This document shows positions 3,846 through 60,328 of a stretch of DNA of 64,000 nucleotides, in pieces (positions within the stretch are counted from its first letter, which is position 1; each line of letters begins with the position of its first letter). The notes beneath the pieces are model-generated. The model saw nothing but the letters and a program-made list of their open reading frames with translations, was not told the origin of the DNA and ran no database searches. The DNA is from Porphyra umbilicalis. Its lineage: Eukaryota; Rhodophyta; Bangiophyceae; Bangiales; Bangiaceae. Location of the stretch: NCBI GenBank assembly GCA_002049455.2, contig KV918770.1:186001-250000 (forward strand), in the 5' to 3' direction. The position numbers and the translations under genes are program-made.

Positions 3846-3883
3846 AGGAAAAAAACAAACCGCACAGCGGGAGAAAAAAACAC
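3846..3883 (-). promoter_or_regulatory. ENE-like double U-tract hairpin after Harbinger transposase copy a
   Basis: Read on the minus strand, 22 bp after the transposase stop: a T-run, then the stem CCGC-TGT-GCGG, then a second T-run, then CCTAC. The plus-strand copy shows two A-runs. A third A-run (3827-3835) lies just beyond. Four other Harbinger gene ends in this window have the same arrangement with different stem bases. The layout of a U-rich internal loop between two stems matches the ENE family that clamps poly(A) tails; the assignment is inference. Confidence 0.5.
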
Positions 3884-3905
3884 TTTACGAGCACCAAGAC
3901 GAGCA

Positions 3906-4931
3906 TCACCCTGTGTGGGGCAGCAGGAACTGTTCGCGGTTGGGAAAGATATGCTCAGCCAAGTCGTCCCGCGACAGCTCCTGCTCATATTGGTCAAGGG
4001 CCTGCTGCCGCGCCTGAAATGACTGGAGCAGAATACCCGCTGCATTGACCGGATTGTTCACCAGAATACCAACAAGCTGCTCTTGGTCAGGGTCAGGGTC
4101 TTGCTCATGCATTCCGGCGGCCACTTCCCCTGCGGCCTCCGCCATGTGCGCCGCGCCGTCGTCAACGCCTTCGTTGGCCACGTCTGCGTACAGCCCCGCC
4201 GCTACGCGGCGCACGCTCACGTTGCCGAGACGATTCTGCTTGACCATGATGTTTTGCAGAATCGTGACCGCCCGCGCCGCTTGTCGGAGTTTCTCAACCG
4301 TGGTGAATCGTGCGGGGTGGAGCAACACGTTGAAGCGCCCCGTGAGGACTGCATAAAGGCGCTGAACATCTTTGCGTAAGGCTTCTTGTAGGCGATTGTA
4401 CGTGCGCTTCTTGGGCGTGTCGGCGTCAGGGTAGGGGGTGACGAAAGAGGCGTACCGCGGGTCGATTCTGTCGGCAAAGTAGGACGCAATCGTGCGTGGG
4501 CGGGTGCTGACTGTAAACGTCATCGTTGGGGCGGCCAGATGCCGGCAACGATGGCATGGTAGAGGGGTGATAGCTTGAGAACGTTGACGTCGTTGTTGCT
4601 GCCCGCCGCCCCAACGGTCACGTGCCATACGTATGTGTCCTCGTCGCGCAAAGTCGCGAGCACAACCGAGCGGTAGCCCTTGCGGTTCTGGTACTGGCCG
4701 TGCAGCGTTGTCGGGCACGAGCGCCACCGCCAATGCGAGCAATCGATTGAGCCCATACAGCCGGGCATTGCACGCGCCTTGTTCCGATCCAGGATGACGC
4801 GCAGCTCCGCGTCTGAGGCCGCGCGCAGGTAATAGGCGGCGTACTCCTCCACGACAAAGTCGATGAGCTTGTGGACGGCGATAGAGATGGTGGCCTTGCT
4901 CAATCGTACGTACTCGTCCGCGCGGTCTTAG
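3906..4931 (-). pseudogene. PIF/Harbinger transposase, C-terminal part (copy a, split gene)
   Basis: DDE_Tnp_4-type nuclease of PIF/Harbinger elements, which cuts and rejoins the transposon ends. This part encodes ADEYVRLSKATIS, the first catalytic region GCMGSIDCSHW, the second in GSNNDVNV, and the third in RKDVQRLYAVLTGRFNVLLHP. It ends in the family-typical tail SRDDLAEHIFPNREQFL and a stop at 3906. The frame changes between about 4500 and 4620, and the usual substrate-loop region there is disturbed, so the gene is broken. The N-terminal part lies at 16210-16639, beyond a copia insertion. The bases at the two edges (CTTAG at 4927-4931, CGTAG at 16210-16214) look like a target-site duplication with one change. 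The intact relative at 52766-54352 runs through this point as GEAADRADEYVRLS. Confidence 0.85.
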
Positions 4932-5349
4932 TGTTGGACTGTGATGCTCGTCGCCGACTCCGCATGCGGTTAGCGGTTGGACGATGGTCGGTGACCCTTA
5001 TGGTACCCCACATGGTACACTTGCAAGACGTGGTGAAGTTGCACACATCTGTGTTGGGTCATCTTGGGGCGTTACTTTTGGCATGTTTTGGATTTGATCT
5101 TCGCTTTGCTCTAGTTGCTTTTGATTTGGTGAGTGATTCGATTTGGTGCGAGGGCGTGGGCGTCGGTGTGGGCGCGAGAGGGGGGAGCACTTGGGCCGGT
5201 GGGGACTATTTGAGAGGTGCTCTCGGTTGGGAGAGGCGGGCGAACCTTAGGACAACCAACAAAGCACGTTCGCACACACACACACAAGCTCAAGCCACTC
5301 AACCACTTCACCGTGGTCCCCCAACCCCTATCCCCACTGCGTTTTAACA
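4932..5349 (+). repeat. copia-1 LTR1 (5' LTR, 418 bp)
   Basis: Begins TGTTGGACT and ends TTAACA, a short TGTT/AACA inverted pair. It contains a CA microsatellite (ACACACACACAC near 5275) and is followed directly by a primer-binding site. Confidence 0.9.
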
Positions 5350-5363
5350 GGTAATGGGCCCAG
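5350..5363 (+). promoter_or_regulatory. Primer-binding site, half-tRNA type
   Basis: GGTAATGGGCCCAG lies immediately after LTR1. It is complementary, with about one mismatch, to the anticodon arm of initiator tRNA-Met, as in Drosophila copia, where an internal tRNA-Met fragment primes reverse transcription. The second copia element has GGTAACGGGCCCAG at the same place. Confidence 0.7.
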
Positions 5364-5510
5364 AGCCGGGGCGGTGACAAGAGCAATGGGGGCCAGCTGG
5401 TGTCGCGGCGGTCGTGGCAAGTGCGATCAGGCCGAGGTCAAGGTTGCTCAAGGACGTGACGGTCAAAGCGAACGGCTCGGCAAGGTCAGGCGATACGACA
5501 AGACGACATC

Positions 5511-8500
5511 ATGGACGGAGGCGCTGCCGGCATGGGCGGCATCAAGATCGACATGTTGACGGAGACGAACTTCCACGAGTGGCGTCAGCGCATTAAGATG
5601 ATCCTCGCGCTGCGCGACCTGGACGATATGCTTGACGAAGACGGCAAGCCGACAAACGCGCAAGACCGCGAGTAGGCTGTCTGGGAGCGTCGAGCCACGA
5701 AGGCGAGTGCCATCATCGGGCTCACTGTTGAGTCTGAGCAGCTCGAGCACGTGTCGGGCTGCAAGACGACGGCGAAAATGTGGTCGACGCTGCAAGGTGT
5801 CTTCCAGCGCAAGAGTTTGATGAGCAAGATGAAGGCGCGATGCGAGTTCTACACCGTCGAAATGACCGTCGGCGAGGGCATGCTGGGCTACATCAACCGC
5901 GTGCGCAACCTCGGCGAGAACCTCAAGGCCATGGGCGGCGAGGTGACGGAGATGGACGTTGCCATGAGCGTCCTTGACAGGCTGACGTCCAAGTACGAGA
6001 ACCTGCTAGTGGCTCTCAACTCCAAGGGCGAGGACGAGCTGAGCCTCGACTTCGTCAAGAGCCGCTTACTTCAGGAGGAGCGGCGGCAGGCGGACAAGTC
6101 ACCGTCGACCAAGCGCGTTGGCGACATGGCACTCGTCGGCGCCAACTATCAAGGCCAAGGCAGCCCTGGTGACCTCTTTCAGATCGAGTGTTCCTGCTGC
6201 AATAAGTTTGGGCGTGTCTCTCACGATTGCCCAGAGCTCAAGGCCAAAAAGCAGAGACAGGACAAGGTGGGTTCGATTGCGGCTGACGATGGTAGCTACA
6301 GCGACGACGCCTTCTGTTTGGTGGGCAATGCGGCTGACACCGATGACATCTCCAAGTCGTGGCTTGTCGATTCTGCGGCGTCTGCACACATGTGCTGGAT
6401 GCGCGGGTGCTTCGACGACTACCAGACGACCACGGGACGCAGCGTCACCATGGGTGACAAGGGTTCCGTAGCCACGGCGGGCAACGGAACCGTCGTGCTC
6501 AATGTCATCGTTCACGGCAAGACGCGCAAAATCTAGGTAGAGGAGGTACTCCATGTTCCGACCATGGGCTTCAACCTCATGTCGGTCGGCATGATGGAGG
6601 AGCGTGGTGCGGCAGTTTCATTCAAGGGCGGTAAGACGATCATCAAGATAAGCGACAAGGTCGCTGCGTGCGGCACGCGGAAGATTGGGCTCTGCCACCT
6701 GCACATGGCCCCACTGTTGGATATTGCTGCGGTGGCCTCTCTTCAGCTCTGGCATGAGCGCCTTGAGCACGTCAACGTGGCTGGCGTTAAGCAGATGATC
6801 AACAACAAGGACATCGATGGACTCAAGTGCTCTTCCATGGCGGTCAAGGACGTCTGCCAGCCGTGCGTGTATGGGAAGGCGGCTATGACGCCTATGCCTA
6901 GTGCAGGAGGAGGTGGAGTCAGCAAGCGCCTGCAGCTCTTGCACTCGGACCTGGGCGGGCCAATGTCGGAGCTGTCGCGTGGCGGTGCGCTCTATTTTGA
7001 CACCTTCACTGACGACTTCTCCCGCTGGACAGAGGTGGTCTTCCTGAAGAAAAAGAGCGATCTGCTCTCTGAGTACAAGAAGTGGCCGACGAAGGCCCAG
7101 CTGCACACGGGAACCATGATCAAGATCCTACGCTCCGACAATGGCGGCGAGTATGTGTCGAATGCATTCAAGGCTCTTCACGATGAGAACGGCACGACGC
7201 ACCAGACCACAGTGCCCGACACGCCGCAGCAGAACGGGGTTGCTGAGCGGCTCAACCGAGTTCTCGTGGAGATGGCTCGCACCATGATGCGACACAAGGA
7301 CGTCGATCAGGATCTTTGGGCGGATGCCATCAAGACGGCGGTCTACATCAAGAACCGCGTCACCAGCCGGGCGCTTCCCATCGGCAACACGCCTTTTGAG
7401 CTGTGCAACGGGAATCAGCCCAACGTCAGCCACATGTGGGTGTTTGGGTTGACATGCTGGGTCTTGCTGCACAAGAGTCAAATCGACGGCACGTTTGGCG
7501 ACAAGGCGGCGACAGGCGTCTTCTTAGGCTATCCCGACGGCAGCAAGGCGTTCGAGGTCATCCTCGACGACGGCAAGGTCGTCAAGGCACGAAGTGTTGT
7601 GCTCGCCGAGACGAACGTAAGCGAGGTCGCAGAAGTTGCGGAGGAGCTTCCCGAAGACGAAGTTGTCGAAATCGAGACGGGTTTGCATTTTGCAAGCGAC
7701 GGAGAAGACGCAGATGCTGACAAAGACGACAAGGACGACAAGCAAGACGATGGATCTGACAAGTCCGCGGACGACAATCAAGGTTGTGGCGGCTCTCAAG
7801 ACACGCTGCGTCGGAGCGGCAGAGCGCGGGCACCACCTGTCGAGTACTGGCGACCGGTGAGCCTGGTTGCTCACGAGGCGCCCACGACGTACGTGCAAGC
7901 CGTTCAAGGGCAAGAATCGGCTAAGTGGCAGATTGTTATGGACGAGGAGATGGAAGCCATCCGCAAGAACAAGACTTGGCGCATGACGGACCGCCCGGCC
8001 AGTCGACGCGTGCTGAAGGGCAAGTGGGTTTACAAGATCAAGAACGAGGTTGACAAGAACGGGAACAACACGACGCGGCACAAGGCGCGCCTGTGCTTCA
8101 TGGGGAACCGGCAGATCAAGGGGCTCGACTCTAACCAGACGTTCGCCCCGGTGGCCAAGTTCACCACCATCCTATGCATCCTGGCGATGACGGCGGCGAA
8201 CGGGTGGCAGCTACATCAGATGGACGTCAAGACGGCATTCCTCAACGGCGACCTTGACGAGGAGGTCTTCATGGAGCAGCCAGACGGCTATGTCAATCCG
8301 ACGTATCCTGACAAGGTGTGTCGTCTCTTTCAAGCGCTGTATGGGCTGAAGCAAGCCCCCAAGATGTTGTCGCCAAGCTCGACGACTTCCTCAAGTCGCA
8401 AGGGTTTGACAACATTGACCCGGATGCATGCCTCCACCTCTTTATGGATGACGGCGAAATCATCATCGTCCTCGTGTACGTCGACGATATCCTGTTGGTG

Positions 8501-9436
8501 GCATCAAGCCTGGCGGCGATCTTCAAGATTACGGACGCTTTGCACAAGCGTTTTGAGATGAAGGACCTGGGCGAGGCGAAGGTCATCCTCGGGCTAAATA
8601 TTAGGCGTGACAAGGCGTTGGGCACCCTCAAGCTGTCGCAGGGCAAGTACGCGGGGCAAGTGCTGGAGAAGTTCGGGATGGCGGAGTGCAACCCGATCGG
8701 AACGCCGCTGGAGGTGGGCCTGCAGCTGGTAAAGGCCGACGAGAGCGCCGACGCGCTGCCTTATCGCGAAGCCGTCGGCAGCTTGATGTACCTGATGGTC
8801 GGGACACGTCCTGACCTCGCCTTCGCTATCGGGAAGCTGAGTCGGTTTGTCTCGTGCTGCGGCCAGGAGCATTTGGCGACAATCAAGCGCGTTCTACGGT
8901 ATGTCAAGAGTTCAATGGACAAGGGGCTGGTCTTCGACAAGAACTCTTCCTGTGTTCTACAAGGCTTTAGTGATGCCGACTGGGCGGTTGACCACGAGAC
9001 GCGACGTTCTACGACGGGCTTCACCTTCATATTTGGCGGAGCAGCCGTCAGCTGGGGTTCTAAGTTGCAGAACACGGTGGCGCTGTCGACGATGGAAGCC
9101 GAGTACATGGCTCTATGTGAGGCCAGCAAGGAAGCTGTTTGGCTCAACAAGATCTTGCAAAGCGTGGCATCTCAAGGGCTGCGAACGGCGATCTCGGGCG
9201 GGCCGATCAACATCAAGGTCGACAACAGCGGGTTCATTGACTTCTCCAAGAACCCCGTCGAGCACAAGCGCACCAAGCACATCGACATTCGATACCACTT
9301 CGTGCGCGAGGCCATCACGACGGACAAGGTGACACTGGAGCATTGTGCAGCCGACGACATGGTGGCGGACCCGATGAGGAAGGAGCTTGGCAAGACTAAA
9401 CACGACAAGCATGTCGAGGCCATGGCGTTTTGCTGA
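5511..9436 (+). mobile_element. copia-1 gag-pol (Ty1/copia polyprotein, fossil)
   Basis: Ty1/copia order of parts: gag with a UBN2-like capsid region (NFHEWRQRIKMILALRDL, about 5570) and a zinc-knuckle-like segment near 6190; aspartic protease (WLVDSAASAHMC, about 6360); integrase with HSDLGGP (about 6940), LRSDNGGEYV (about 7130) and QQNGVAERLN (about 7230); reverse transcriptase with QMDVKTAFLNGDLDEEV (about 8220) and LVYVDDILLV (about 8475); RNase H with DADWA and TMEAEYMALCEASKEAVW to the stop at 9436. Integrase before RT defines copia rather than gypsy. A purine tract (CAAGGAGGAG) precedes LTR2. It is broken, with about three or four breaks. Parts of it (RT end with RNase H, and integrase) recur in arm B at 31649-33423. 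Confidence 0.9.
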
Positions 9437-9471
9437 AAACAAGAGCAACCGCGGCAACAAGCAAGGAGGAG

Positions 9472-21380: not shown

Positions 21381-24300
21381 ATGGCAGACCACGGCCGCTA
21401 TGGCGGCCCGCGGTTTGCGCAGCTGCATGACGATTGCAAGGTGTGGGCAGCGTACCAGCGTGCGCAGCTCAAGAAGGAGAAGCTCTGGGCGGCGGTCGTA
21501 GCGGACCGACCGGCATCTTCGTCCGACGACAAGAATTCCGACCCGGTGGTCGACGCGTGGGACGCCATGAACGAGGCGGCGCTGGCGACCATCCAGATGT
21601 CGGTCAAGCCCAAGCACCTCAACACGGTCACGTTGGTGGACACGGCTAAAGAGGCGTGGGACGCGCTCAAGGTCATGTTCGAGGCGCGAGACAACGCGCA
21701 GCTGCTGCGGCTCATGGACAAGCTGAGCAGCCTCAAGAAGGGCGGCGACGAGAACATCATCAAGTTTGCGTCGCGCGCCAAGATGCTCCAGGACGAGCTC
21801 GCCATGCTCGGAAACCCGGTGGACGACAACACGCTTGCGCTGCGTGTCCTGGCAGGGCTCCCGGCAGAGTACGGGATGCTCAGGACGGTGTTCGAGAACA
21901 AGGACACTAAGCTCGTCAGGTCGGACGTGACGGCTAAGCTGCTTCAAGTCGAGCAGCGGAGCATTTCTGTCGGCACTTCCAAGCCTTCTGGCAGTGTCAA
22001 GTCACAAGCCTTTGCGGCAGCGGCGCCTAAGAAGTCGTTTGACAAGAAGTCGGTTGTGTGCTTCTACTGCAACAAGAAGGGACACATGCAGCGCGACTGC
22101 CACAAGAAGAAGGCAAAAGAGGCCAAGGGCAAGGGAAAGCCCGGCGGTGGTGGCGGTGAAGGCGGCCACGGCGGCGGGCCCCACGCGGGTGCCGCTCTGG
22201 CCTACACTGCTTCTACTGGTAATACCGGGAACAGCAAGACTCGGGGCAGCTCTCTGTGTTCATCAACTTGGGTGCTCTACTCTGGCGCAACCAGCCACAT
22301 GGCCGCCGGGGATAAGGGCTTCACCGTCCGGACGGCGGGAAGCGGGGCCGAGGTCACCTTGGCCGACGGCGAAAAGGTACCCATCAAGGGGCACGGCCAC
22401 GTCTCGATGGACGTTGGCAAGGGCAAAACCAAGACGATCATTGTGCTCGGGGAGGCCATACTCGTGCCGGACCTGAGCAGCAACCTGCTCTTGGTTCGAG
22501 CGGTTGACCGCAATCATGGTGCTGTAGTGTTTGTCGGAAACGCCTGTTACATCTTCAGCGACGGGGATGCCGTTCATTTGAGCGGAGTGCTCGACAAGGC
22601 GTCCGTTGTCGGCAAGGTCAACGACCTGGAGCAGTACGTGCTCAAGGTCACGCCGGTCAAGGCGTCGGCGTGCGCGGCATCGACGCGCATCGCTGGGGAG
22701 GCGGAGTTGTGGCATCGTCGGTTGAACCACTTGGGGTTGGAGAACCTCAAGCGGGCGGCCACAATGGTCGACGGCATGCCGTCGTCAGTGGCAGACGCCG
22801 AGCGCGTCATTTGCACGGTGTGTGTGCCGTGTGTGGACGGCAAGATGGTTCAGTCGCCCAGCCCCCGCTCGTCGACAGCGACAACCAAGTGCGAACTGGT
22901 GCACACCGACATTGGTGGCCCACTTACTGAGTCGCTGGGTGGCACTCTCTACTTTATGACGGCGCTGGAGGACTCGACGGGGCTCATCACAGCTACGCCT
23001 ATCAAGACAAAGGGGATGGCGCCGGAGTTGCTCAAGACGCACATCAAGCAACTTGAGACGCTGACGGGCGTGAAAGTGAAGCGTGTCCGTCACGACGGTG
23101 CAAAGGAGTACATCACGAACGACCTTAAGGCGTGGTACGAGGATAAGGGCATCACGTCTGAGATGATGGCGCCGTACAAGTCGCAGCAGAACGGCAAGGC
23201 GGAGCGGGTGAACCGCACGCTGATGGAGCGCGTGCGTGCTGCCCTGCTTGACTCCGGCGCGGAGGAAGAGCTGTGGGCCGAGGCGTTGGCCTCCGTTGTC
23301 CATGTGCTCAACCGATCTCCCACGGCGGGGCTCGATGTGACGCCGCTCGAGGCGCTGACGGGTCGACGCCCCAACGTCGCGGGATTCCGCGTTTGGGGGA
23401 GTCGGGCGTGGGCGCTCAAGCCGAAGAAGCAGCAGCGCAAGCTGGAGCCGAGGACCGACGTCGGCCGCTTTGTCGGCTACACTGTCGGTGGCAAGGCCTA
23501 CAGCATTCTCGAGGACGAGACAAACCAAGTCTTCGAGCGTCGGGACGTGCTGATTGAGGAGAACCCGGCGAAGGTCGAGACGTCAGCAGTCGGGTCAAGC
23601 GCTGGTCCCCGGCTGACTGCGGAATATGACGGCGACAAGGATGGCGCCACGGAAGGCGCAATGGACATGCTCGGCGCAGAAGGCGGGCACGACGACGAGT
23701 ACTCCCCCGACGACACCTCTGACAGCGACAACGAAGTCGGTCCTCCTTCCTTTGTCGGGGATAGCCAGGAGGAGGACGAGGACAGCGTCGGTGGCTCGAC
23801 ACCCGCAGCTGCTCAAGAACCTGCGGCCAGTGACAGGGTCACACCGGGGCCTCGTCGCTCGAAGCGCAAGCCAGCTCCTAAGGTAACATGGTGGGAGAAG
23901 GAACCCAAGGCGTACCTGGCAAGCGGTAACGCTTCCGTGGCTGAGGCGGGCTGGGACTTGCACAAGCCGCCTGCAAACGAGAAGAAGGCGCGCGCTCGTC
24001 CTGACTGGCCGCTGTGGAAGCAGGCCATTAAGGAGAAGGTGGCGGCACACAAGCACCTTGGCACCTGGTCCAAGACCAAGGGAAACAACAAGAATCACAA
24101 GGCCATCAAGACGCGATTCGTGTTCGACATGCAGCACGACGCGGAGGGCAAGCTGACGCGCTACAAGGCTCGACTCGTGGCCCAAGGGTTCAACCAGGTG
24201 CCCGGACGAGACTTTGACGAGACGTGGGCTCCGGTACCCAACGCGGCCACGACACGTGCTCTCTTTGCTGTGGCGGCAGCCATGGGCTGGGAGATTCACC

Positions 24301-36938: not shown

Positions 36939-37076
36939 AAGGCCGGCGGGCCAGGACAAGCCGGCGAGCTAGGACAAGCCGGCGGCAGCGACAGGCACGC
37001 CGCCGCCGGTGTACAAGTAGGGGACGTTGACGCCGTCGGCTGTGGCGTTGCTGCGCCGAGGTACGCACCCCCACCG

Positions 37077-38477: not shown

Positions 38478-38512
38478 TGTGTTAGATTGCGTATTGGACA
38501 GCGACTTCAAAG

Positions 38513-38552
38513 AATTTTTGTTCCCCGTTGGGCAGGATTTTTTTGTTTCCTA
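38513..38552 (+). promoter_or_regulatory. ENE-like double U-tract hairpin after SANT gene b
   Basis: 35 bp after the stop: AAAGAA, a T-run, CCCC-GTTGGGCA-GG, a second T-run, then TTTCCTAC. It is nearly the same as the element after the transposase at 52766-54352. Confidence 0.5.
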
Positions 38553-38842
38553 CTTACTTCGTATTTGCGTCCAACAGAGAGTATCCCTCGCGCGTCGGTC
38601 CCGGGTAGCTCACCACGCCAGGAGCGGCAGAGGTCTGCGCGATAGCCGCGGCGCTGCTCGCCGTCACGCCGACTTTGCGCCGGTGCTGAGCTGCCGTGCT
38701 GTGCCTTTCGCACGCCGCCGCCGTCGGCGCGTCAGTAACAACTGGTGCGTGCGTGGCGGCGGCGGCCTATGCGCAGGTCTACCTCTCAAAAAGCAGCCAA
38801 GGCAGGCAGCACGAAACATGCTCAAGAAGACACACAGATGTA
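38553..38842. other. Intergenic space between convergent Harbinger ORFs
   Basis: GC-rich, no frame of interest. Contains GCCGCCGCCGTCGGC-type repeats near 38710. Confidence 0.4.
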
Positions 38843-38880
38843 AGGAAAAAAAAAACCGCGAGGCGGGAAAAAAAAAACTT
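38843..38880 (-). promoter_or_regulatory. ENE-like double U-tract hairpin after Harbinger transposase b
   Basis: On the minus strand, 14 bp after the stop: AAAG, ten T, CCCGC-CTC-GCGG, ten T, CCTTAC. The stem CCGC/GCGG equals that of copy a, but the triloop differs (CTC against TGT). AAG and CTT can close the outer stem. Confidence 0.55.
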
Positions 38881-38893
38881 TGTTCGTCTCTAG

Positions 38894-40861: not shown

Positions 40862-41600
40862 CGCGCGAAGAAGACGGTCGCCACAACGGTGGCGGCGGAC
40901 GGCCGTCGACGACGACGGCGCCGCCCTGACGGTACCACCTGCACTCGGATCTCCCCAGCACCCCACAGAAAACACACCGCACGGACAGAGCAGATTTCCT
41001 TTCGCCCACCCCCCCGGCAGACCGTTTCAATGCCCCCCGCTGGACCCCCGAAACTGTCGCATCCCGGGGTGGAGGTACGGTCGCCTGTGGTCGCGTGCTC
41101 GATGCGACGGTCCGTCGCAGTCGCGATGCCGTTGCAAACGGTGAGCGCTCGAACGCTCTCCCGCGACACAAAGTGCATGGTTTGTCACTGCAGTTTTCTA
41201 AAAAGCCGGATGCCACGACACAAGCCTTTCGAACGGCGGCCAAAGCAGCGCCAGCCAATGAGAGAGCGGAACAAGATGGGGAGAAGCGCTTCGACTCCCC
41301 AAATCGTGCAGAGAATGGGGTACAAGGGCCTCACCCCCCATTTTCTGCCCGCTGAATCTGTGTGTACTTATATGATTCCGATCAACTAGATTCGCGTTTT
41401 CTTTCTTCGATTTGGGGTGCCCGACGTTGCTGTGGAGCCGTCCCCAACCCCAAGAGCCTAAATAGAGCCACGTGGAGCATGTGGGAGACACGTTTCTGAC
41501 ACGTATACACATTCGGACTTGGAGATGACGTTGTTCAAGACAGGAAACTCTAGCATTGATCAGGGTGCGTCAAAGCTGAGGCCAGTCTGACGCAGGCATC
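40862..41600. other. Upstream region of transposase b, no gene recognised
   Basis: A CCAATGAGAG box at about 41252 and CTGATTGGCTG at about 41602 stand at the edges of this stretch. GCGGGCAGAAA occurs here on the minus strand (about 41350) and at 34549 on plus, far upstream of the partner gene; this could be part of terminal repeats, but I could not extend it. Confidence 0.35.
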
Positions 41601-48294: not shown

Positions 48295-49338
48295 TTAGTA
48301 CTTGGTCGAGTGGCCACTCGCTACCGCTAGAGCCCCCACCCTCCGCGGCATGCCCTCCGACAAACCCGCAAAGAGAGAGTCAGGCAGACGGTCCCACTCC
48401 TCGCACAAGGCATCAAACAACATGTCCAACGTGGTGGGTGGCGTCGGGCGGGCACGCAGACGCCGCTCGAGGACGCTCCAAACGTTCTCAATCGGGTTCA
48501 TGTCTGGACTCTGAGGAGCCCAGTCGACGCGCTCCAGTCCGTGCAAAGCCATGTAGAAGCGCACCGCACGAGCCCTGTGGGGCCCACAGTTGTCGTCGAG
48601 CAGCTTGAAGTTGCTTGTCCCACCGTGCTTGGTCTCCACAAACGGGAGAAGGTGGTTGTGCAGAATGTCGATATACTTGTGTTGGTTCAAACGCCCCTCC
48701 ACGCGTACCAGGGGCGTCCTGCCGCGCGCAGAGAAGCCCCCCCACACCGACAGGCTCAGCCGACCCGACTTAAAGGATGGGCGGAGGCATGCGGGCAGGT
48801 AGCGCTCCGTCGGACGCCGCCAGACGTGTGCTTCGCCTCGCGCTGGCCGCACCGTAAAAGTGCTCTCGTCGGCAAAAGCAACCTTACCCCAGTCCTCGGG
48901 GGTCCAGCTACTCTTTTCTCGCGCCCACTTCCGTCGCAGGGCCACGTGGCGGCGCGTCAAAAACGGCTTGGTTACTGCGGCATAGCTCCGCAGGCAGGCG
49001 CGGTGGAGGTAGCGACGCACGGTGCTCTCGCTCACCGGGCGAGCCACCGATTGGTTGAAATCTTGTGTCAGCTGGGCCAGGGACCAGCTGCGGTGGCGGT
49101 AGACCAGCAACTGCAACATGCGGGCGTCACGAGCGGAGAGGAGGCGGGGGCGACCGCTGCGGCGGCGGCGCCCAGCTGTCCCCTCGCGCCGAACCCGCGC
49201 GGCAATGGTCGCTACAGTGCTCAAAGGCAACTTGAGATGGGAGGCAATGAAGGCATTGGAAAAAGATGAGTTTACCAAAACAGCTATAGCCGCCCGGGTG
49301 GCGGCGGGCACCTCCTTGGAGCCCTTGCGGCGCGACAT
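48295..49338 (-). CDS. Tc1/mariner transposase, DD34E
   Basis: 347 residues, a usual length for Tc1-like enzymes, which cut out and reinsert the element at TA. Residues 1-115 form the paired DNA-binding region with two helix-turn-helix parts (SFSNAFIASHLKLPLSTVAT and WSLAQLTQDFNQSVARPVSE) joined by a GRPR AT-hook-like motif (62-65, SGRPRLLSARD). Catalytic residues are D157 (VAFADESTF), D249 (KLLDDNCGPHRA) and E284 (SPDMNPIENVW), with 34 residues between the last two. The ATG at 49338 is the natural start (MSRRKGSKEVPAATRAAIAV). No stops or frame changes. The stop at 48295 is about 90 bp inside the left repeat. Confidence 0.95.
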   Translation of the reverse strand: MSRRKGSKEVPAATRAAIAVLVNSSFSNAFIASHLKLPLSTVATIAARVRREGTAGRRRRSGRPRLLSARDARMLQLLVYRHRSWSLAQLTQDFNQSVARPVSESTVRRYLHRACLRSYAAVTKPFLTRRHVALRRKWAREKSSWTPEDWGKVAFADESTFTVRPARGEAHVWRRPTERYLPACLRPSFKSGRLSLSVWGGFSARGRTPLVRVEGRLNQHKYIDILHNHLLPFVETKHGGTSNFKLLDDNCGPHRARAVRFYMALHGLERVDWAPQSPDMNPIENVWSVLERRLRARPTPPTTLDMLFDALCEEWDRLPDSLFAGLSEGMPRRVGALAVASGHSTKY

Positions 49339-49480: not shown

Positions 49481-49482
49481 TA

Positions 49483-51799: not shown

Positions 51800-52765
51800 T
51801 CTCATTGGTCGAACGATTCGAAATAGTATAGAAGATAGCACGCTTAAGCGAGCAACGTGTGGGTCCACGATCAGCCCCGGTTTTTCACAGTCATTCAGAA
51901 ACTAGAAATTGTCGATCTGGACCACTCCTCTCGAAAGCGGACCCACGGCTCGCGAGATATTTTGGTTACGGCGTGCACAGAGGGAAGCGCGTTGGATCTT
52001 TTTGCGCCTGCGTGGCTCCCACGCATCGCTCACAGAGCAATCTGAGAGGGGTGGGGCTGTCGACCCAGGGGTGCTGCGCCTGCGTAGGGCCTCCCTGGGG
52101 GCCCACGTGGAGGGAGGTCGTGGCGCGAGGGCGGCGCGGGCCGTCGACAGCGCCGCGTGGAGGGGCGAGATCGGGCCGGTCGCTGTGCCACAGCTATTGG
52201 GGCGCCCTGACAGGAGCCTGAGGGGGTCCTGCAGCCTGAATGGTCGCGCCTGGATGGGGGGGGCCGCGATCGGCACCGTTTGGAGGGGGGTGGCCGCCCA
52301 GCCACCGTGCATCAGTGGCAGGGGCGCCCGCACGAGCGCTGCCTGGGGGGGGTGGTGGCAGGGCATCCCGGCGTGCATCAGCGGTGGGGGGGTGCGCTGG
52401 GGTGGCTGTCCGCAGTAGTCGGCCGGACACGCCATTCAGAGGACGGCACGGGCCGCCCGCTGATTGCCACCGCCGTCGTCACCCCCATCCCGCCGCCGCC
52501 GATTTTTGTCCACCCACCACACCCGTGAGCACGGCCGACGCGGCCCCTCCTCCATCGCGCCGGCCACGCGCTCTGCTCTCACCGCTGGGCTCCATCCCAC
52601 TCCCCCCCCCTCCTCGATCTCGCTGGGCACGCGCGCTGCTCGCACCGCTCGTCCCCCCTCCCCCCCCCTCCTCCCTTTCCACGACGCACTAGGCGCCCCT
52701 GCTGTTGTTCCCCATTCCCACCCCGCGCCCCACGGGGTCCGGTCGTCTGCGTCCCTGCCTTCAGT
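51800..52765. other. Upstream region of the intact Harbinger transposase
   Basis: ATTGG box at 51805; G-rich on plus from 52060 to 52430, then a C-rich polypyrimidine stretch (52450-52700) with short repeats (CTCGATCTCGCTGGGCACGCGC and variants near 52560 and 52610). It probably holds the promoter and 5' leader. No gene recognised. Confidence 0.35.
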
Positions 52766-54352
52766 ATGGACGTCGAGGAGGAGGAGGTCTCGGCCACCGC
52801 CGCCCTGCTGGCCGAGGACGACGGCGCGGATGTTGCTGCTGTGGTGCAGGCGCACGTCAATGTGCTCATGGCGGTGCGCCGACGCGCGCGCGCCAAGCGC
52901 ATCGCGCGACGATGGCTCTATCGTGGCTCCACCGCGGGGCGCCGTGGCAACAAGCGCCGCGACTTTGCGGCCGGTGTGCACGCCATTTTGCGAGACTACT
53001 TCGGTGTTGGCGGTCTGCTTCCTATCTACGATGACCGGGACTTTGAGACGCGGTTCCGTGTCCCCCGCGCCGTCTTTCGGCGTATCTATTTGGCTGTCAA
53101 GGACGAGCCTTTCTTCCAACAACGCATTAATGCGACGGGCAAGCTGCAAGCGCATCCACTGCAGAAGGTGGTGGCAGCCTTTCGCGTGATCGCCTACGGC
53201 GAGGCGGCCGACCGAGCGGACGAGTACGTGCGCCTGTCCCGGACGGTGATCGCCAAGTCGACCAAGTTGCTGATGGAGTTTATTGTCAAGCGATGGGGAC
53301 CTACCTACCTGCGACGACCGAACCAAGACGAGCTCAACACCATTATGGAGCGCAACAAGGAGCGCGGGATGCCGGGGTGCATGGGCTCCCTCGACTGTTG
53401 CCATTGGGAGTGGCACCAGTGCCCGACGGGGATGGCGGGGGCGTACCAGAGTCGCAAGGGCAAGAGGGGCATCGTCGTAGAAGCTGTGTGTGACGAGGAC
53501 CTGTGGGTGTGGCACCTGTTTGTAGGGGCCCCCGGCAGTCTTAACGACATCAACGTCATGCAGCAGTCGCCGCTGTACCTGGACGTCACTGGCGGCCGGT
53601 GGCCGCCGCGCGGCACGCTCTTTACTATCAATGGCCGCACCCGCACGCTACCCTACTACCTTGTCGACGGGATTTACCCGCGCTACGCTTTTCTGATGTC
53701 GCCGCACCCCAAGCCGTCCACCGAGGAGCAGACGACGTTCAACCGCCTCCAAGAGGCCATCCGGAAGGACGTGGAGCGGCTGTTTGGCGTATTGATGAAG
53801 CGCTTTCATGTTGCGCTCCACCCTGGGCGCTACCGCTCTGTGTCGCAGCTAGTGACGACCTACAAGGCCATTTGCATTCTGCACAACATGTGTGTGGAGA
53901 GTCGACGTAGCAACTTTTTGAGTCGCCGTCGACGTGCGGCGGGGGGTGATGATGGGACTAACTGTGGCGTAGGTGGCGATGCTGGCGGCGGGTCAGATGG
54001 TGGGGAAGGACAGAGCGGTGGGGCACCAGCTGGCGGCACTGCTGCCGCCGGGGCACTTGCACCTGGCGGCGGCAGCGGCGGTGGCGTCGGCGGTGTTATT
54101 GCTGCCGCCGGGGCTCCAGCACCTGGCGGTGGCGTCGGCGGCGTCGCTGCGGCAATGGACAACTTTGACGCCGTCGGCAACGCGCCTCCTGCTCTTAATC
54201 CTGTCGCCCACCCGCCTGCCGCCGGCATGGCTGCCATTTTTGATGCTTGGGCTGAGACGCAGAACGTGGAGGAGAACGAGCGCTTGCGAGCCGACCTGAC
54301 TGCGGACATTTATCGCGACCGAGGCGAACTGCTTGCCCCGTACGTTGGGTGA
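52766..54352 (+). CDS. PIF/Harbinger transposase, intact (copy c)
   Basis: 528 residues without interruption. N-terminal acidic start (MDVEEEEVSATAALLAEDDG), a basic patch (RRRARAKRIARRW, about 38-50), the PIF helix-turn-helix-like region (DFETRFRVPRAVFRRIYLAV, about 92-112), and the DDE_Tnp_4 nuclease. Catalytic residues: D210 (GCMGSLDCCHWEW), D261 (GAPGSLNDINVM) and E337 (RKDVERLFGVLMKRFHVAL). The C-terminal linker is Gly/Ala-rich (about 395-470), followed by the conserved end ENERLRADLTADIYRDRGEL. It is followed 33 bp later by the double T-run element. The nearest SANT-like partner is convergent at 60390-61622, about 6 kb away, with a histone-like gene between; in copy b the two genes are 0.4 kb apart. 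Confidence 0.93.
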   Translation: MDVEEEEVSATAALLAEDDGADVAAVVQAHVNVLMAVRRRARAKRIARRWLYRGSTAGRRGNKRRDFAAGVHAILRDYFGVGGLLPIYDDRDFETRFRVPRAVFRRIYLAVKDEPFFQQRINATGKLQAHPLQKVVAAFRVIAYGEAADRADEYVRLSRTVIAKSTKLLMEFIVKRWGPTYLRRPNQDELNTIMERNKERGMPGCMGSLDCCHWEWHQCPTGMAGAYQSRKGKRGIVVEAVCDEDLWVWHLFVGAPGSLNDINVMQQSPLYLDVTGGRWPPRGTLFTINGRTRTLPYYLVDGIYPRYAFLMSPHPKPSTEEQTTFNRLQEAIRKDVERLFGVLMKRFHVALHPGRYRSVSQLVTTYKAICILHNMCVESRRSNFLSRRRRAAGGDDGTNCGVGGDAGGGSDGGEGQSGGAPAGGTAAAGALAPGGGSGGGVGGVIAAAGAPAPGGGVGGVAAAMDNFDAVGNAPPALNPVAHPPAAGMAAIFDAWAETQNVEENERLRADLTADIYRDRGELLAPYVG

Positions 54353-54384
54353 CGTGATGTAGGGCGTAGTAGAGTAGACACAAA

Positions 54385-54423
54385 GGTTTTTTTTTCCCGC
54401 TGGGCAGGGTTTTTTTTTCCTAC
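54385..54423 (+). promoter_or_regulatory. ENE-like double U-tract hairpin after Harbinger transposase c
   Basis: AAAGG, nine T, CCC-GCTGGGCA-GGG, nine T, CCTAC. Outer stem GG/CC, symmetric U-rich internal loop, inner stem CCC/GGG. The clearest of the five examples. Confidence 0.6.
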
Positions 54424-54429
54424 ACACCT

Positions 54430-54802
54430 TCGTAACGATCGTGTCCACGGCGGGAGGCCCCCAGCGCCGGTAGCCCCGAGCGCCTGGCCGACTGGTACGG
54501 CGGGGGATCCCCCGGGTTTCTTCAGCCGCGGTCGTCGCTGAGGGCCGCCCCCGCCGGCCCGCCGCGGCCTCCACACGGTGCCGACCCGTGGTGACGCTCC
54601 CGCGACGGCGGCAGCGCCCGAAGGCGGGTCGCCGACTCCGCCGCCGACGCCGCTGCCGCCGCTGACCCCGCGCCACAGGCGAGGCCACTCAGCACGCAGC
54701 CGTTGCCGCCGGCGCGTGCAGACGGCCAACTGTGTGCCTGCGGCGGCGGCGGGGGGCGCGACCGAGGCGTCCGCGGTGGCGGCAGGCAGCGGCAGTAGTC
54801 CG

Positions 54803-54853
<51 letters not shown>

Positions 54854-54859
54854 GCCGCC

Positions 54860-54892
<33 letters not shown>

Positions 54893-55620
54893 GCCGCCGC
54901 CGCCGTCGCCGCTGCTGCCGCAGCCGCGGCCGTAGCCGCCGCCGTCGCCGTTCATGGCGCCGTTGAGCGCGACCAACGCCGCCCCCTGCGCTTGGGCGGC
55001 GTCGAGGCTGGCGGCGAGCGCACGTGCGGCGGCGGGAGGGTACGCGACGGCTGCGCCGAGGCGGCCACCGGGGGGGACGTCACGGAGGTGGCAGGCAGCG
55101 GCAGCGGGCCGCCGCCGCCGCCGCCGCCGCCACCGCCGCCGCCACCGCCGCCACCGCCGCCGCTGCCGCCGCCGCCGCCCCCGCCCCCGCCCCCGCCGCC
55201 GTCGCCGCCGCCGCCCCCGCCCCCGCCGCCGTCGCCGCTGCCGCCGTCGCAGCCGCCGGTGCAGCCGCCGCCGCAGCTGCTGCCGCCGCCGTCGCCGCTC
55301 ATGGCGCCGTTGCCCGCCACCGACGCCGCCCACTGTGCTTGGGCGGCGTAGAGGCTGGCGGCGAGCGCACGTGCGTCGGCGGGAGGGTACGGAGCGCACG
55401 CGCCGCGGCGGCGGAGCGGCACCAGGCGACTAAGCCACGGAGATTGCCGGCGGTCGCCTCGCGGGGGGGCGGGGGGGGAGGATTGCGGGCAGCAGCACGG
55501 TGGGCAGGGCGGCGGCCTGCGGTGGGGGCGGCACTCGTGCCAAGTGCCGCACGATGGTGGCGCGTGCGAGCTTCGCAAGATCTTGTGGCTCGATACACTG
55601 CCGATCGACATTATTATTTA
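54430..55620. repeat. GCC microsatellite and GC-rich block
   Basis: GCC-triplet runs at about 54800-54920 and 55110-55260, between two copies of a segment containing GGCGGCGTCGAGGCTGGCGGCGAGCGCACGTGCGGCGGCG (about 55000) and the related form near 55345; these two diverged copies are about 350 bp apart. Poly-Ala, poly-Pro or poly-Gly frames are composition effects. Confidence 0.65.
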
Positions 55621-55639
55621 ACTTGCTTCTGTCGTCACC

Positions 55640-56215
55640 GCTCGCCATGAAAATCAAGCACAAACAATTCATTGCCACACGTGTCCTGACGACGCCACAG
55701 TCCAATGACATGGCTTCACTCAGAGGAGGTACACATGTCACGAACGTGCGGAAAGTCATGTGATTCCTCACATGACCACAACGACCAATCAAAACACTTG
55801 TATCCATTATATGATGCAAGGCTTTGAACAGTGTGTTTGATGATTAACAAATGTAAGTGATCCCATTGGTTTTCAAGGCTCTCGAAGAATGATGTCCCAC
55901 AGTTGACGGACGCCAGAAACTCACGTGATTCCTTACATGACTTCAAGAACCAATCAGACCACTCGTATCTGCCATACATTGCAAGACATGGCCCCTCGTC
56001 GTTCTCGATTAACATGTCTAAGCCATTCCATTGGTTGTCGTGGCGCTGTTTCAATGCCCACAGTGGGCGAACGACATAGAATCACACGGTCCCGAACGTA
56101 TATTTACCAAGATCCAATCAGAACACTTGCATCTATCTTACAATGCACAGCTCTCAACCGCGTCGCTGGCGAATAGCGTTTCCGTGCACCCCATTGGTTG
56201 CCGTGACGCAGTGTG
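55640..56215 (+). promoter_or_regulatory. Degenerate repeats (about 160 bp) with paired CCAAT boxes, upstream of the H3-like gene
   Basis: Three to four units, clearest from 55745, 55919 and 56079. Each opens with a TCA(T/C)GTGATTCCT(C/T)ACATGAC-like block, then CCAATCA(A/G)A(A/C)CACT(T/C)GTATC, then an inverted box CATTGGTT about 85-110 bp later. CCAAT boxes are common in histone promoters. The array ends about 460 bp before a TATA box. Confidence 0.55.
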
Positions 56216-56674
56216 AACGACGTAGTCGAGTGGATGGCTGCGAATGAGATCTACGGCGGCGACAGCGGGACCTGCAGGGAGCTGGGGGGAGGCGGGTTGT
56301 CACCCGAAGATCGCTCCCGGGGGGGGGGCGATCAGCTGGGGCGATCTGTGGTCATCGATCCCGCATTGAGTGGGGCGTCAGCGACCGGGTGGCGCGGTTC
56401 TTTGGATAAGCATTCCTTTCTCTGGCAATAATTTTCGCACTTTCTTGGACACTAACTCACGAAGATGAGAAGAAATGTACATTTCCACGCTTGAACGGAG
56501 TCATGGAGACGGCGGATTCGGATGACTCTGCGAGCCCAATACAAAGGCGAAGGAATGTCCCCACAGATGCATCCACTATGAGTTGCGGAGGGGTTTCTGG
56601 TCCTGCCCAGGTGGTCTCTGGCAGGCAGTGGCCGTGCCCGTCACCCAGGGCACCCAGGGGAGACCCATTCCAGG
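56216..56674. other. Promoter-proximal region of the H3-like gene
   Basis: No frame of interest; moderate GC, with an AT-richer patch near 56425-56490. Confidence 0.35.
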
Positions 56675-56680
56675 TATAAA
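56675..56680 (+). promoter_or_regulatory. TATA box of the histone H3-like gene
   Basis: TATAAA within GGTATAAAGAGGAG. A start site about 30 bp on would fall near 56705, next to TCATTCC. Confidence 0.5.
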
Positions 56681-56759
56681 GAGGAGCCCATCCCGGCCAT
56701 CTCCTCGCGGCGTCATTCCGCAGTATCGTCCCTTCTGCCCGCCCCCTTCCCCACCCCCG

Positions 56760-56960
56760 CCCCGCCTACCTCTACCGGCGGTGCGGCCTGCCCCCGCCTC
56801 GCCGACTGTGGTCTGGGGTTGACCTGTCCCCCCCGGCACCCCGCCGCCCTCCCCCCCCCGCCCCGCCAACCTCTACCGGTGGTGCGACCTGCCCCCGCCG
56901 CGCCGACTGTGGTCTGGCGTGGACCTGCCCCCCCCCTCACCCCGCCTCAACTCCCCCCCC
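56760..56960 (+). repeat. Two tandem units of 101 bp in the H3-like leader
   Basis: Units start at 56760 and 56861 (CCCCGCC(T/A)ACCTCTACCGG, then CGCCGACTGTGGTCTGG and GACCTG). Between them and up to 57018 runs a C-rich tract that ends in CCGCCAG just before the ATG, so part of it could be an intron. Confidence 0.7.
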
Positions 56961-57018
56961 CCTGCCCCCCCTCTCCTCTGCCACCTGTGGCGGCTACTAC
57001 ACCTGCGCCCCGCCAGCA

Positions 57019-57432
57019 ATGGCGCGGACGAAGCAGACGGCGCGGCGGTCCACTGGCGGCAAGGCCCCGGCTTCTCTGGCCAGGGCTGCCGCCAGGCGGG
57101 CGACCAAGTCCAAGGCCGGTGGCAAGGCCGCAGTCAAGCGCCGTTACCGGCCTGGGACGGTCGCCCTGCGGGACATCCGCAAATTCCAGCGGTCGGGGGA
57201 GCTGCTTATCAGCAAGCTCCCCTTCCAGCGCCTGGTGCGCGAGATTGCGCAGGAGTACACTAACTCTCCTCGCTTTTCGGCGTCTGCTGTGTTGGCGCTG
57301 CAGGAGGCGTCCGAGGCCTACCTGGTGGGCCTCTTCCAGGACGCCCAACTGTGCGCCATCCACGGCAAGCGTGTGACTGTCATGTAGAAGGACATCCAGC
57401 TTGCTCGCCGCATCCGCGGCGAGCGGGCGTAG
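57019..57432 (+). pseudogene. Divergent histone H3-like gene with in-frame UAG
   Basis: Nucleosome core histone H3 homologue. The tail starts [21 protein letters not shown]4 and K14 are kept, K9 is Arg, and the segment around K27 is replaced ([17 protein letters not shown]). The core is well kept: [62 protein letters not shown]. Loop 1 has normal H3 length, so it is not CENP-A. K56 is Arg and K79 is Thr. A TAG at 57385-57387 stands where H3 has Pro121, after which KDIQLARRIRGERA follows exactly to a second TAG at 57430. The perfectly kept end suggests a very recent nonsense change, read-through, or a truncated but useful product lacking the last helix end. It lies between convergent Harbinger-type genes. 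A TATA box and CCAAT array upstream argue against a plain retrocopy. Confidence 0.85.
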
Positions 57433-57560
57433 CTCGTGCTTTGTGGGGATGTGCTTGCGTTGAGTTTACTACATTCATTAACTTCTTTGAGAGACGCGGC
57501 GCTCGAGTGGGATGGAGATGAGGTAGGAGGTGGGACATAGGCGCCAAAAAAAAAAAAAAG
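57433..57560. other. 3' flank of the H3-like gene
   Basis: Contains an A-run (about 57547-57561). No clear histone 3' stem-loop seen. Confidence 0.4.
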
Positions 57561-59300
57561 AAACGTCGAGCGAAGCCGCGGCTCTCGCACCCGCGTCGCC
57601 GCCCACGGGAAGCAGCGGGCGAGCCACCGCCGGCGCGTCGTGCCGTCGGCGCCTTCGGCGGCGGCCGCCGCCGCGTGGAGCCCCGCGGCGGCGGCGGTGA
57701 CGGCGGCGGCCGACGGGCGGCGGCCGCGGCGGTGGCGGCGGCGGCCACCGCACGGGCGGCGCACGCGGGCGGCGGGGCGCCCGTCCACCTGCGGCGGCGG
57801 CGACGGCGGCGGCGACGCGGGCGCCGCCGGCGGCCCGTCGGTCGGCCGCCGGGCCAGCCGGCCAACGGCCGCGACGCGGCGGTGGAAACGCTGTCGATGC
57901 GACCATGCTGGGGCGGCGCCCCCCCTCCCCCCCCCACCCCCCCACGGCGCGACGGCCGCCTCACCGCCCGCAACGCTGCGGCCGCTACCGCCGGCGGCGG
58001 CGGCGGCGGCCATGGCCCGCGGCTTCGTCGACGCTGCGAGTGCGCCGCCCACGTCTGGGCCGACGTCGGCCGTGGGCGTGGCCGCCGTCTGGGGTGCGGG
58101 GGCAGCGGCGCGGGGCGCCGTGGGGTGGCCACGGGCGCGCCACCGCCGCCTACACCGCCGCCGCCGCCTGCGCCGCCGCCGCCGGCACCGCCGCCGCCGC
58201 GGCCGCGGTGTCCGCGACGGGCACCACTACCCGTAACGACAGCAACGGCGGCGGCCGCGGCAGCGCCGCCGTCTGGGGTGGGGGGGCAGCGGCGCGGGAC
58301 ACCGTGAGGTGGCCACGGGCGCGCCACCGCCGCCTACACCGCCGCCGCCGCCTACACCGCCGCCGCCGCCTACACCGCCGCCGCCGCCTACGCCGCCGCC
58401 GCCGCCAGCGCCGCCGCCGCGGCCGCGATGTCCGCGACGAGCACCACTGCCCGAAACGACAGCAACGGCGGCGGCCGCGGCAGCGCCGCCGCCGACGAAC
58501 CGGTGGCAGCCGCCGCCGCCGCCGCGGGCGACGGGGCGTGGTCTACCCCCACCCACGAGCCCCCGCTGGTCACCGCGGCGCCACCTCGTCGGCCGCCGCC
58601 GCCTCGGCCGCGGCCGCCGCCGCGGTGGTGACGTCGGCCAGCGACATGGACGCGGCGGCGCCAGCGTCGCCCCCCCCCCCCCACGAGCGGCGTCCGGCGC
58701 GTCGCCATCGCCACCGCCATCCGCCGCCGCCGCCGAGATCGCCGCCGCCGGCCGGCGTGGCCGTCGGTGCCTGCCCGGAAGCGACGACGCCGAGCACCCC
58801 GGCGTCGGGCTGGCGGCCGTGTCGTCGGCGCCGCCCCGCGGCGCCGACGAAGAGCGCAAACGCGTCGGGGTGGCGGCCGTCCCGCCGCCGTCGCCTGGCG
58901 GGGCCGACGCCGAGGGCATAGGCGGCGGGCTGGCGACCGTGCCGCCGCCGTCGCCCGGCAGGGCCGACGCCGAGCGCGCCAGCGGGGCGCCGAAGGCCGT
59001 GTCGCCGTGGCCGCCCGGCAGCGCCACCACACGGATCGCGCCTGCGGCGGGCTGGTGGCCGAAGGCACCAGCAGTGGCCGGCGGCCGGCGACGGCGCGGC
59101 AGCAAAGAGCGCCGCCGCGTCGGCGGGCGCCGCCATCGGGGCGGGGGGGGGGGTACAGGCGACCCTGGCGGCGAAGCGACAGGGACGGAGGGACGCTCAT
59201 GGAGGAGAGGGGGAGGGGGTGCGGCGGATCGGCGTCGGAGGGGCGGCACTCGCGCAGTGGTGATCAGCACGCGGGGAAGCGAAAATCCCCCGCGCTCTCC
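57561..59300. repeat. GCC/GGC-rich block with a tandem duplication
   Basis: Composition-driven block with all frames open. A segment of about 184 bp starting GCCGCCGTCTGGGGTG occurs at 58081 and 58265, the second copy longer through extra CCGCCGCCGCCTACA units. Later GCGCCGAC..GGCGGCCGTG.CG-type units of about 60 bp repeat from 58780 to 59010. No supportable gene. Confidence 0.65.
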
Positions 59301-59633
59301 AGTCCCAATTGAACGGTGGCGTTGAGCTACGAAGCACGGAGAGCAGGACATGTACATATGCTTGCGCCACAAAATTTGCAAACGCGAGACGGGCGTCTTT
59401 GGGGGGCTGTACGGTCGATCTCGCGACCAGAAATTTGAACATACCAACATACTCCGAATACCACTCAGTTTTCGCAAAAACCTATTTTTATTTCATTGTC
59501 GCACTGTCATGCTGGCCATGTACATTCGATGAGTTCTATTGGCGCTCACCGATCGCAATGCGTTCAGTTCCGGCTCCGAAGTCGGGGCTGCGCACAAGTG
59601 CGGACGGGCGGCCCACGCCGGGCAGCCCCGCTC
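59301..59633. other. AT-richer spacer, no gene recognised
   Basis: Short drop in GC between two repeat blocks. Nothing identifiable. Confidence 0.4.
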
Positions 59634-60041
59634 GCCCGGGGCTGCGTCTGCCCACCTGTTGCCCGCCGCCGTCGGCGCCGCGCCGGCGCCGCGCTCCCCT
59701 CGCCCGCGGCTGCGTCTGCCCGCCTGTTGCCCCCCGCCGTCGCCCCCGCGCTGGCGCCGCCCTCTCTTCGCCCGCGGCTGCCGCTGCGCGCCTGTTGCCC
59801 GCCGCCGTCGGCGCCGCGCAGGCGCCGCGCTCCCCTCGCCCGCGGCTGCGTCTGCCCGCCTGTTGCCCCCCGCCGTCGCCCCCGCGCTGGCGCCGCCCTC
59901 TCTTCGCCCGCGGCTGCCGCTGCGCGCCTGTTGCCCGCCGCCGTCGGCGCCGCGCCGGCGCCGCGCTCCCCTCGCCCGCGGCTGCGTCTGCCCGCCTGTT
60001 GCCCCCCGCCGTCGCCCCCGCGCTGGCGCCGCGCTCCCTTC
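59634..60041. repeat. Six 68-bp units with strict A-B alternation
   Basis: Units start at 59634, 59702, 59770, 59838, 59906 and 59974. Odd units carry GTTGCCCGCCGCCGTCGGCG, even units GTTGCCCCCCGCCGTCGCCC and CGCTGGCGCC. The real repeat is thus a 136-bp dimer, as in higher-order satellites. 68 is not a multiple of three, so the frame rotates and coding is unlikely. Confidence 0.9.
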
Positions 60042-60288
60042 GCCTGCGAGTTTTGCGGTGCCGAGGGCCGGGGTTTAGCGACGCTGCCGACCAGGCGGGG
60101 CGTATGGGGGAGGGGGAGGCGAGCGTTGGCGGGGACGGGTTGGTGTTGGACTCTGCGACGCGCGAGGCGTTGGGCTGATGGAGGGGCGGCAGCACAAAGC
60201 GGAGACGCCGCACGACTGCGTGTGGTCCGTCGCTGGTTGCTTGCCGCAGGCGGAGGTCGACTGTGTGCACCGAGAAAGGCATAAGTAT

Positions 60289-60328
60289 AGGAAATAAAAA
60301 ACCCCGAAGAGGGATAAAAAAAAAACCT
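60289..60328 (-). promoter_or_regulatory. ENE-like double U-tract hairpin after SANT gene d
   Basis: On the minus strand, 62 bp after the stop: AAAGG, ten T, ATCCC-TCTTC-GGGG, then TTTTTTATTTCCTA. Same order of parts as the other four, with a different inner stem and loop. Confidence 0.5.

Follow-up and report, generated by a model that had tools for sequence, protein, structure and literature searches.

A 64,000-nucleotide stretch of the Porphyra umbilicalis genome (contig KV918770.1, C10 in the numbering used here, positions 186001–250000 of an 83.8-Mb assembly of 665 contigs), referred to below as the window, carries five copies of a short element consisting of a U-run, a GC hairpin and a second U-run. 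Each copy lies on the coding strand, 16–64 nt beyond the stop codon of a PIF/Harbinger-type transposase gene (three copies) or of its partner gene (two copies), an arrangement described in an earlier note on this DNA (with distances of 14–62 bp) and confirmed here from the sequence and with profile hidden Markov models (HMMs). The element is probably an ENE (element for nuclear expression), a structure of the 3' untranslated region (3' UTR) that would form a triple helix with the poly(A) tail, in one PIF/Harbinger-type clade. It is recognizable from its anatomy, strand and position, recurs in many copies in the genome, maintains the pairing of its upper stem, persists between divergent transposase families and is followed by sequence with the composition of a poly(A) site. 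The existence of a conserved 3'-UTR structure is well supported, and would hold even if the ENE mechanism were to fail.

The five elements of the window

Element 1 (3846–3883, minus strand) lies behind a transposase gene, 25 nt after a TGA stop codon, and consists of U7-CU, the hairpin CCGC-UGU-GCGG, UUUG and U7. Element 2 (38513–38552, plus strand), 37 nt after the TAG stop codon of a partner gene, has interrupted U-runs (CCCCGUUGGGCAGG). Element 3 (38843–38880, minus strand; U10-C-CCGC-CUC-GCGG-U10) follows a transposase with broken frames, 16 nt after the TAA stop codon of a fragment with a conserved C-terminus, and the same element is found at three intact-looking copies (L011, L033 and L037). 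Element 4 (54385–54423, plus strand; U9-CCCGC-UGG-GC(A)GGG-U9) is located 34 nt after the TGA stop codon of an intact transposase gene, and element 5 (60289–60328, minus strand; U10-A-UCCC-UCUUC-GGGG-U6-A-U3) 64 nt after the TAG stop codon of a partner gene. Distances are counted from the stop codon to the first U-run. The assignment of sites 1, 3 and 4 to transposases and of sites 2 and 5 to partner genes, on the same strand, was made with profile HMMs built from homologues. The U-runs are interrupted at sites 1, 2 and 5.

A covariance model, R1, scored the five sites, in the same order, at 45, 47.7, 52.2, 64.9 and 40.5 bits; all five were in its training set, so that it is informative only on the rest of the window, where the next-best place reached 15.5 bits. 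The R1 scan found no element site at the window's two Copia-type open reading frames (ORFs) or its Tc1/mariner-type ORF. A search of both strands for T5+ N8-22 T5+ returned six places, the five sites plus a U-run pair at 33702–33723 (minus strand) without a matching hairpin. A strict two-stem descriptor fitted two of the five sites (54387 and 38846) and nowhere else in the window; in 20 Markov shuffles it matched nowhere at T>=5 or T>=6, and averaged 0.3 places (maximum 2) at T>=4. Rfam gave seven sub-threshold matches, none of them at the five sites.

The earlier note described several copies of different age; the five sites are real, but they amount to about three insertions, because sites 2 and 3 lie at the ends of two genes that face each other in a single decayed element with broken frames (36693–41026) and sites 4 and 5 probably belong to a single composite element of about 10 kb (52529–62060). 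This composite structure is suggested by the recurrence, for example on contig C28, of the same convergent gene pair with both elements in a similar-sized gap. The gap in the window (54430–60280, about 6 kb) contains GC-rich tandem repeats (e.g. 59631–60048, period 68/136) and ORFs without a Pfam match.

The family of site 1 displays a third U-run, in the order U7, hairpin, U7, CCUACAAGCGAGG, U8, CC (window 3828–3880, minus strand; C21:46852–46909, minus strand), the additional U8 run lying at 3828 beside element 1. In this arrangement the middle U-run could be common to two hairpins, the second of them closed by CCU/AGG, making a double-domain version of the element possible in this family.

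Association with one transposase clade

Genome-wide, the pattern GG-T6-N8-22-T6-CC (T6 being six or more, fixed at both ends) was found 393 times, versus 20 times for the same pattern backwards and 16 times for a CC...CC control pattern, many matches to which were T-rich. The more specific T7-CCCGC-N2-8-GG-T7 had 66 matches versus 0 backwards, and AAAGG-T6-N8-22-T6 had 126 matches in forward and 498 in reverse orientation, versus 3 and 0 backwards; nesting inflates the figure of 498. A few families account, through near-identical copies, for many of the genome's sites.

The link to gene ends was assessed on contig C1, using the T6-N8-22-T6 places among the matches listed there (up to 915 kb), without selection for a hairpin. 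This sample comprised 36 distinct places, ten T-rich ones of which were left out by eye, leaving 26 to be examined (L009 and L039–L063). A transposase or partner-gene HMM match was present upstream, on the same strand, for 15 of the 26, and all 15 were element-like. A Harbinger gene therefore lay upstream of 15 of the 16 element-like places versus 0 of the 10 others. In this sample the element is thus not equally frequent away from gene ends; equal frequency would, according to the earlier note, have refuted its proposal. The exception, L055, is element-like without a Harbinger match and faces L054, which has a transposase. The element-like judgement was first made by eye and then repeated with a second model, R2, whose 27 training sites all lie outside C1; R2 shares families with C1, hence its independence is partial. 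At E values up to 0.5, R2 matched 15 of the 25 loci L039–L063, made up of L055 and the 14 loci positive for Harbinger, and missed the remaining ten; its weakest matches were L054 (E 0.065) and L042 (E 0.011). A second type of T-run pair, arranged around CCATGCATGTCCC, was seen at L034:1826–1869 (minus strand) and in L053 (minus strand), with no Harbinger HMM match just upstream, and R2 did not match the pair of this type in L053.

Twelve transposase 3' ends, 66–94% identical to the window transposase, were chosen blind to the element. It was present after all 12, strongly decayed in two cases (L105 and L114), and is thus not missing after other Harbinger ORFs of the clade, as the earlier note had allowed that it might be. 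In another DDE_Tnp_4 clade, with 22–27% identity to the element-bearing transposases, R2 matched none of eight loci (the best PF13359 matches), although a T5 pair is present in one of them, L003. Between seven transposases taken from families whose elements differ, identity is 36–72%, a range that leaves out family M. Facing pairs of elements between convergent genes are frequent (e.g. C11:344956/346415 and C28:237668/243648).

Hairpin, flanking stem and U-runs

Stem sequences vary between sites and the upper stem stays paired, as the earlier note had stated. In 38 distinct inner strings found after Harbinger genes, the best upper stem had a mean length of 4.29 bp, versus 3.73 bp in letter-shuffled strings (0 of 500 as high). 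For 62 distinct strings among the listed rows of the 393 GG-T6..T6-CC matches, the mean was 4.27 bp, versus 4.06 bp when 3' halves were swapped between strings (2 of 1000 as high) and 3.64 bp after shuffling. Dissimilar stems occur in the same layout: CCCG-UCA-CGGG, GCCA-UCA-UGGC, CCUGCC-UUU-GGCAGG, CCUGCC-UUUU-GGCGGG and C-CCCU-ACA-AGGG. Three of the four unusual-stem sites checked lie behind a transposase on the right strand, the fourth (L119) being without a match. The shorter of the two U-runs has a median length of 8 over 56 sites, three rows whose inner string (GTGGTGCCTG) is unrelated having been removed. Among 42 distinct flank pairs, 29 show G preceding and C following the U-runs, and AAAGG stands opposite CCU(U).

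Free folding gave a lower stem, a U-loop and an upper stem at three of eight sites (54378, 60287 and L010), with AGG/CCU, a U9 loop and the upper stem at element 4. The hairpin alone was obtained at 38837, L049 and L012, and another shape, not ENE-like, at the decayed sites 38506 and 3840 (sites 2 and 1).

Downstream composition and the possibility of a polyadenylation signal

The sequence following the element was profiled after thinning 68 sites to 28 family representatives, less than 62% identical downstream. The 3' U-run is followed by CCU, then by a zone with A at 0.345 (+4 to +9) and one with T at 0.376 (+10 to +26), beyond which T drops to 0.18–0.19; T is higher at +10 to +26 than at +46 to +90 in 24 of the 28 families. 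In 49 less strictly thinned sites, A rises to as much as 0.59 at +8. Poly(A) sites usually comprise a cleavage site and, beyond it, a U/GU-rich element. The composition after the 3' U-run resembles this layout, suggesting that the tail would start within about 10 nt of this run. Projected onto element 4, the 28-family profile would place the putative cleavage/poly(A) zone and the T-richer zone at 54422–54444 (plus strand).

The main doubt about the ENE reading arises here. The element sits where a polyadenylation signal would, and could itself be such a signal, the hairpin bringing an A-rich box (CAAAGG) to the cleavage site, with U-rich elements on both sides and no triple helix. The 5' AAAGG, conserved without covariation with the 3' CCUU, is what such a signal would lead one to expect. 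However, a host signal should follow host genes too, whereas all the element-like places examined on C1 but one lie behind a Harbinger gene, and that one faces such a place; in addition, two long U-runs flanking freely varying stems exceed what a signal needs. This rival is serious, but we consider it rather unlikely.

The ENE model and the remaining alternatives

Two facing U-tracts beside a predicted poly(A) tail, on transposon mRNAs, correspond to the definition of an ENE, and it is on this basis that the ENE reading is favored. In this model, the short hairpin of GC pairs, together with a likewise short base (AGG/CCU), would hold two U-tracts of about 8–10 nt opposite each other, and the poly(A) tail, starting a few nucleotides past the 3' U-tract, would fold back between them as U.A-U triples. 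The clamped tail would be hidden from deadenylases, and the transposase and partner mRNAs would thereby be stabilized. A fuller version of the model can be put forward tentatively, at slightly less than even confidence: a long-stack poly(A) clamp in which 8–10 U.A-U triples follow one another without a break, flanked on each side by a short GC clamp. Both genes of a DNA transposon with two genes would carry it, no more than about 10 nt from their poly(A) sites, and it would co-stabilize a transposase and its DNA-binding partner, with several hundred variants in one genome and perhaps, in one family, a third U-run and a second domain.

Several results weigh against the ENE reading. The lower stem (AAAGG/CCUU) shows no covariation, with a mean of 1.64 bp versus 1.64 bp when permuted (P 0.53), and the lengths of the 5' and 3' U-runs are uncorrelated (rho -0.13, P 0.42, 38 strings). 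In a MAFFT alignment of 44 sites, column-based covariation was not above that of shuffles and RNAalifold predicted no pair; the columns are misaligned, since U-run and stem lengths differ between rows, so this alignment was set aside as a test and counted as non-support. Folding energies at eight sites (z -2.07 to +1.46) could not be separated from those of shuffles. Finally, the main hairpin, CCCGYUGGGCAGGG, is conserved in sequence too, more than pairing alone requires. The earlier note had the elements matching the ENE shape 'exactly', which is too strong: the architecture is ENE-like, but its lower stems are short, and its U-tracts exceed in length those known from ENEs of transposable elements (TEs). 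Its proposal that both genes protect their mRNAs with an ENE is partly supported, by the anatomy, the link to one clade and the poly(A)-site-like composition; the behavior of the lower stem and of the U-run lengths weighs against it, and the predicted poly(A) site, triple helix, clamp and gain in stability remain readings of the sequence.

The element might instead be bound by an RNA-binding protein with a preference for U-rich sequence, to which the hairpin would offer the two U-tracts, and which would control the stability, export or translation of both mRNAs: the hairpin is conserved beyond its pairing, and the U-runs are conserved without correlation between their lengths. The G-C bases that border the U-runs at every end, like the position beside the putative tail, fit a triplex better, and a protein site appears doubtful, more so than a polyadenylation signal. 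A role in DNA or transcription, as a terminator or barrier between convergent genes or as a transposition site, would be in line with the frequent facing pairs between convergent genes, but is highly improbable given that each element is bound to a gene end and to the coding strand and that stem pairing is maintained. The notion of functionless inherited baggage, frequent only through transposon multiplication, accommodates the many near-identical copies of a few families, but is scarcely credible for an element that persists across transposases only 36–72% identical while its changing stems still pair, and whose long T-runs would be expected to decay in a window with 66% G+C and 17% T.

Comparison with known ENE systems

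Like the element described here, TE-borne ENEs belong to transposon mRNAs and have a U-rich internal loop located close to the poly(A) tail, which in the present case is a predicted one. The 2016 survey by Tycowski and colleagues is said to include no predicted TE-borne ENE stack above five triples, whereas at the median site here neither U-tract is shorter than 8. About 200 TE-borne ENE motifs, mostly from plants and fungi, are attributed to Tycowski et al. (2016) in PMC12501189, and the rice hAT double-domain ENE TWIFB1, one of this group, is named in PMC10855403. Long triple stacks appear possible, since a structure with 11 consecutive triples is cited in PMC10855403 and PMC11411715.

A close comparison is provided by Evade, an Arabidopsis Copia93 element. 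According to PMC12501189, its ENE melts biphasically with A20 and depends on the two U-tracts and on the G-C pairs that abut them, and loss of the ENE lowers RNA stability and the number of new insertions. The likeness lies in a transposon 3' UTR with stem-held U-tracts near the tail, in G-C pairs adjoining the U-tracts and in the clamping of the tail; for the P. umbilicalis element, the tail, its clamping and the lower-stem pairs are predictions from sequence. However, Evade is a land-plant long terminal repeat (LTR) retrotransposon with four U-tracts in one long spacer, whereas the P. umbilicalis element belongs to a DNA transposon, each of whose two genes has a single hairpin with a pair of U-tracts.

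The 3' triple helices of MALAT1 and MEN-beta share with the element two U-tracts around a stem and, if the model holds, an A-rich third strand, but they belong to non-coding RNAs, not linked to transposons, whereas transposon mRNAs are concerned here. Their A-tract is encoded in the genome. The ENE of the Kaposi's sarcoma-associated herpesvirus (KSHV) RNA PAN clamps the poly(A) tail with a U-rich internal loop, as the element would in the model; it has short U-tracts, belongs to a viral nuclear RNA and lies farther from the tail than the elements here. This ENE is named in PMC10855403 and PMC12501189, and the MALAT1 stack is given as nine U.A-U triples plus one C+.G-C triple in PMC11411715. 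No report joining an ENE with Harbinger, red algae or a DNA transposon was found in the open-licence literature searched.

Gene content of the window

The intact transposase gene in front of element 4 (52529–54352, plus strand) is an open frame with a stop codon, matching PF04827 (204.2 bits) and PF13359 (58.6 bits), both above their cut-offs, and the transposase HMM (E 3.8e-288). These Pfam matches confirm a DDE transposase of the Plant_tran/DDE_Tnp_4 kind. The partner gene (60390–62060, minus strand; own HMM E 7.9e-280), which adjoins the transposase in convergent order, is classed by Pfam as NAM-associated, barely above the cut-off (PF14303, 30.8 bits on 60390–61622, cut-off 27.7). SANT/Myb domains are absent from the Pfam matches of the partner gene, and the label 'SANT' given to it comes from the earlier note. 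In the decayed element, five open pieces of a broken-frame transposase (38897–41026, minus strand) match the transposase HMM, and the partner gene (36693–38477, plus strand) is present as two open pieces (HMM E 3.9e-25 and 5.2e-70); the piece at 37329–38477 (plus strand) has no Pfam match. The transposase of site 1 (3906–4997, minus strand) also consists of two open pieces (HMM E 8.5e-72 and 2.1e-49), with a PF04827 match of 63.3 bits on 3906–4628. Terminal inverted repeats and a 3-bp target duplication are hallmarks of PIF/Harbinger elements; no terminal repeats were recognized among the inverted repeats listed (25 of 763, 25 of 93 and 10 of 10).

Among 120 listed relatives of the window transposase, the only one named by organism comes from another red alga, Pyropia yezoensis (48% identity). 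Three relatives of the window partner protein in environmental sets are 100% identical to it, and another (P0149, 68% identity) is found in a transcriptome-derived set, so partner-type genes appear to be expressed somewhere. No relatives in viral contigs or prokaryote genome contigs were confirmed by tblastn (32 and 114 candidate stretches, respectively).

Besides the Harbinger genes, the window carries ORFs for two pol genes of Copia type and for one transposase of Tc1/mariner type (6564–8561, plus strand; 21381–24521, plus strand; 48295–49338, minus strand). Elsewhere in the genome, another DDE_Tnp_4 family with a 442-amino-acid frame occurs at 12 places with an identical score (C5:316446, C9:275651, C22:436892 and nine more), and probably represents a recent burst.

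Significance

TE-borne ENEs are already known; what would be new, if the mechanism holds, is their occurrence in Harbinger, on both genes, in a red alga, with U-tracts past the limit of five triples reported for TE-borne ENEs. Poly(A)-tail clamping would then be a standard part of a Harbinger-type clade in red algae, and the mechanism would extend beyond viruses, two mammalian long non-coding RNAs and the TEs of plants and fungi. The several hundred natural variants in the genome may help to show which U-run lengths and which stems survive.

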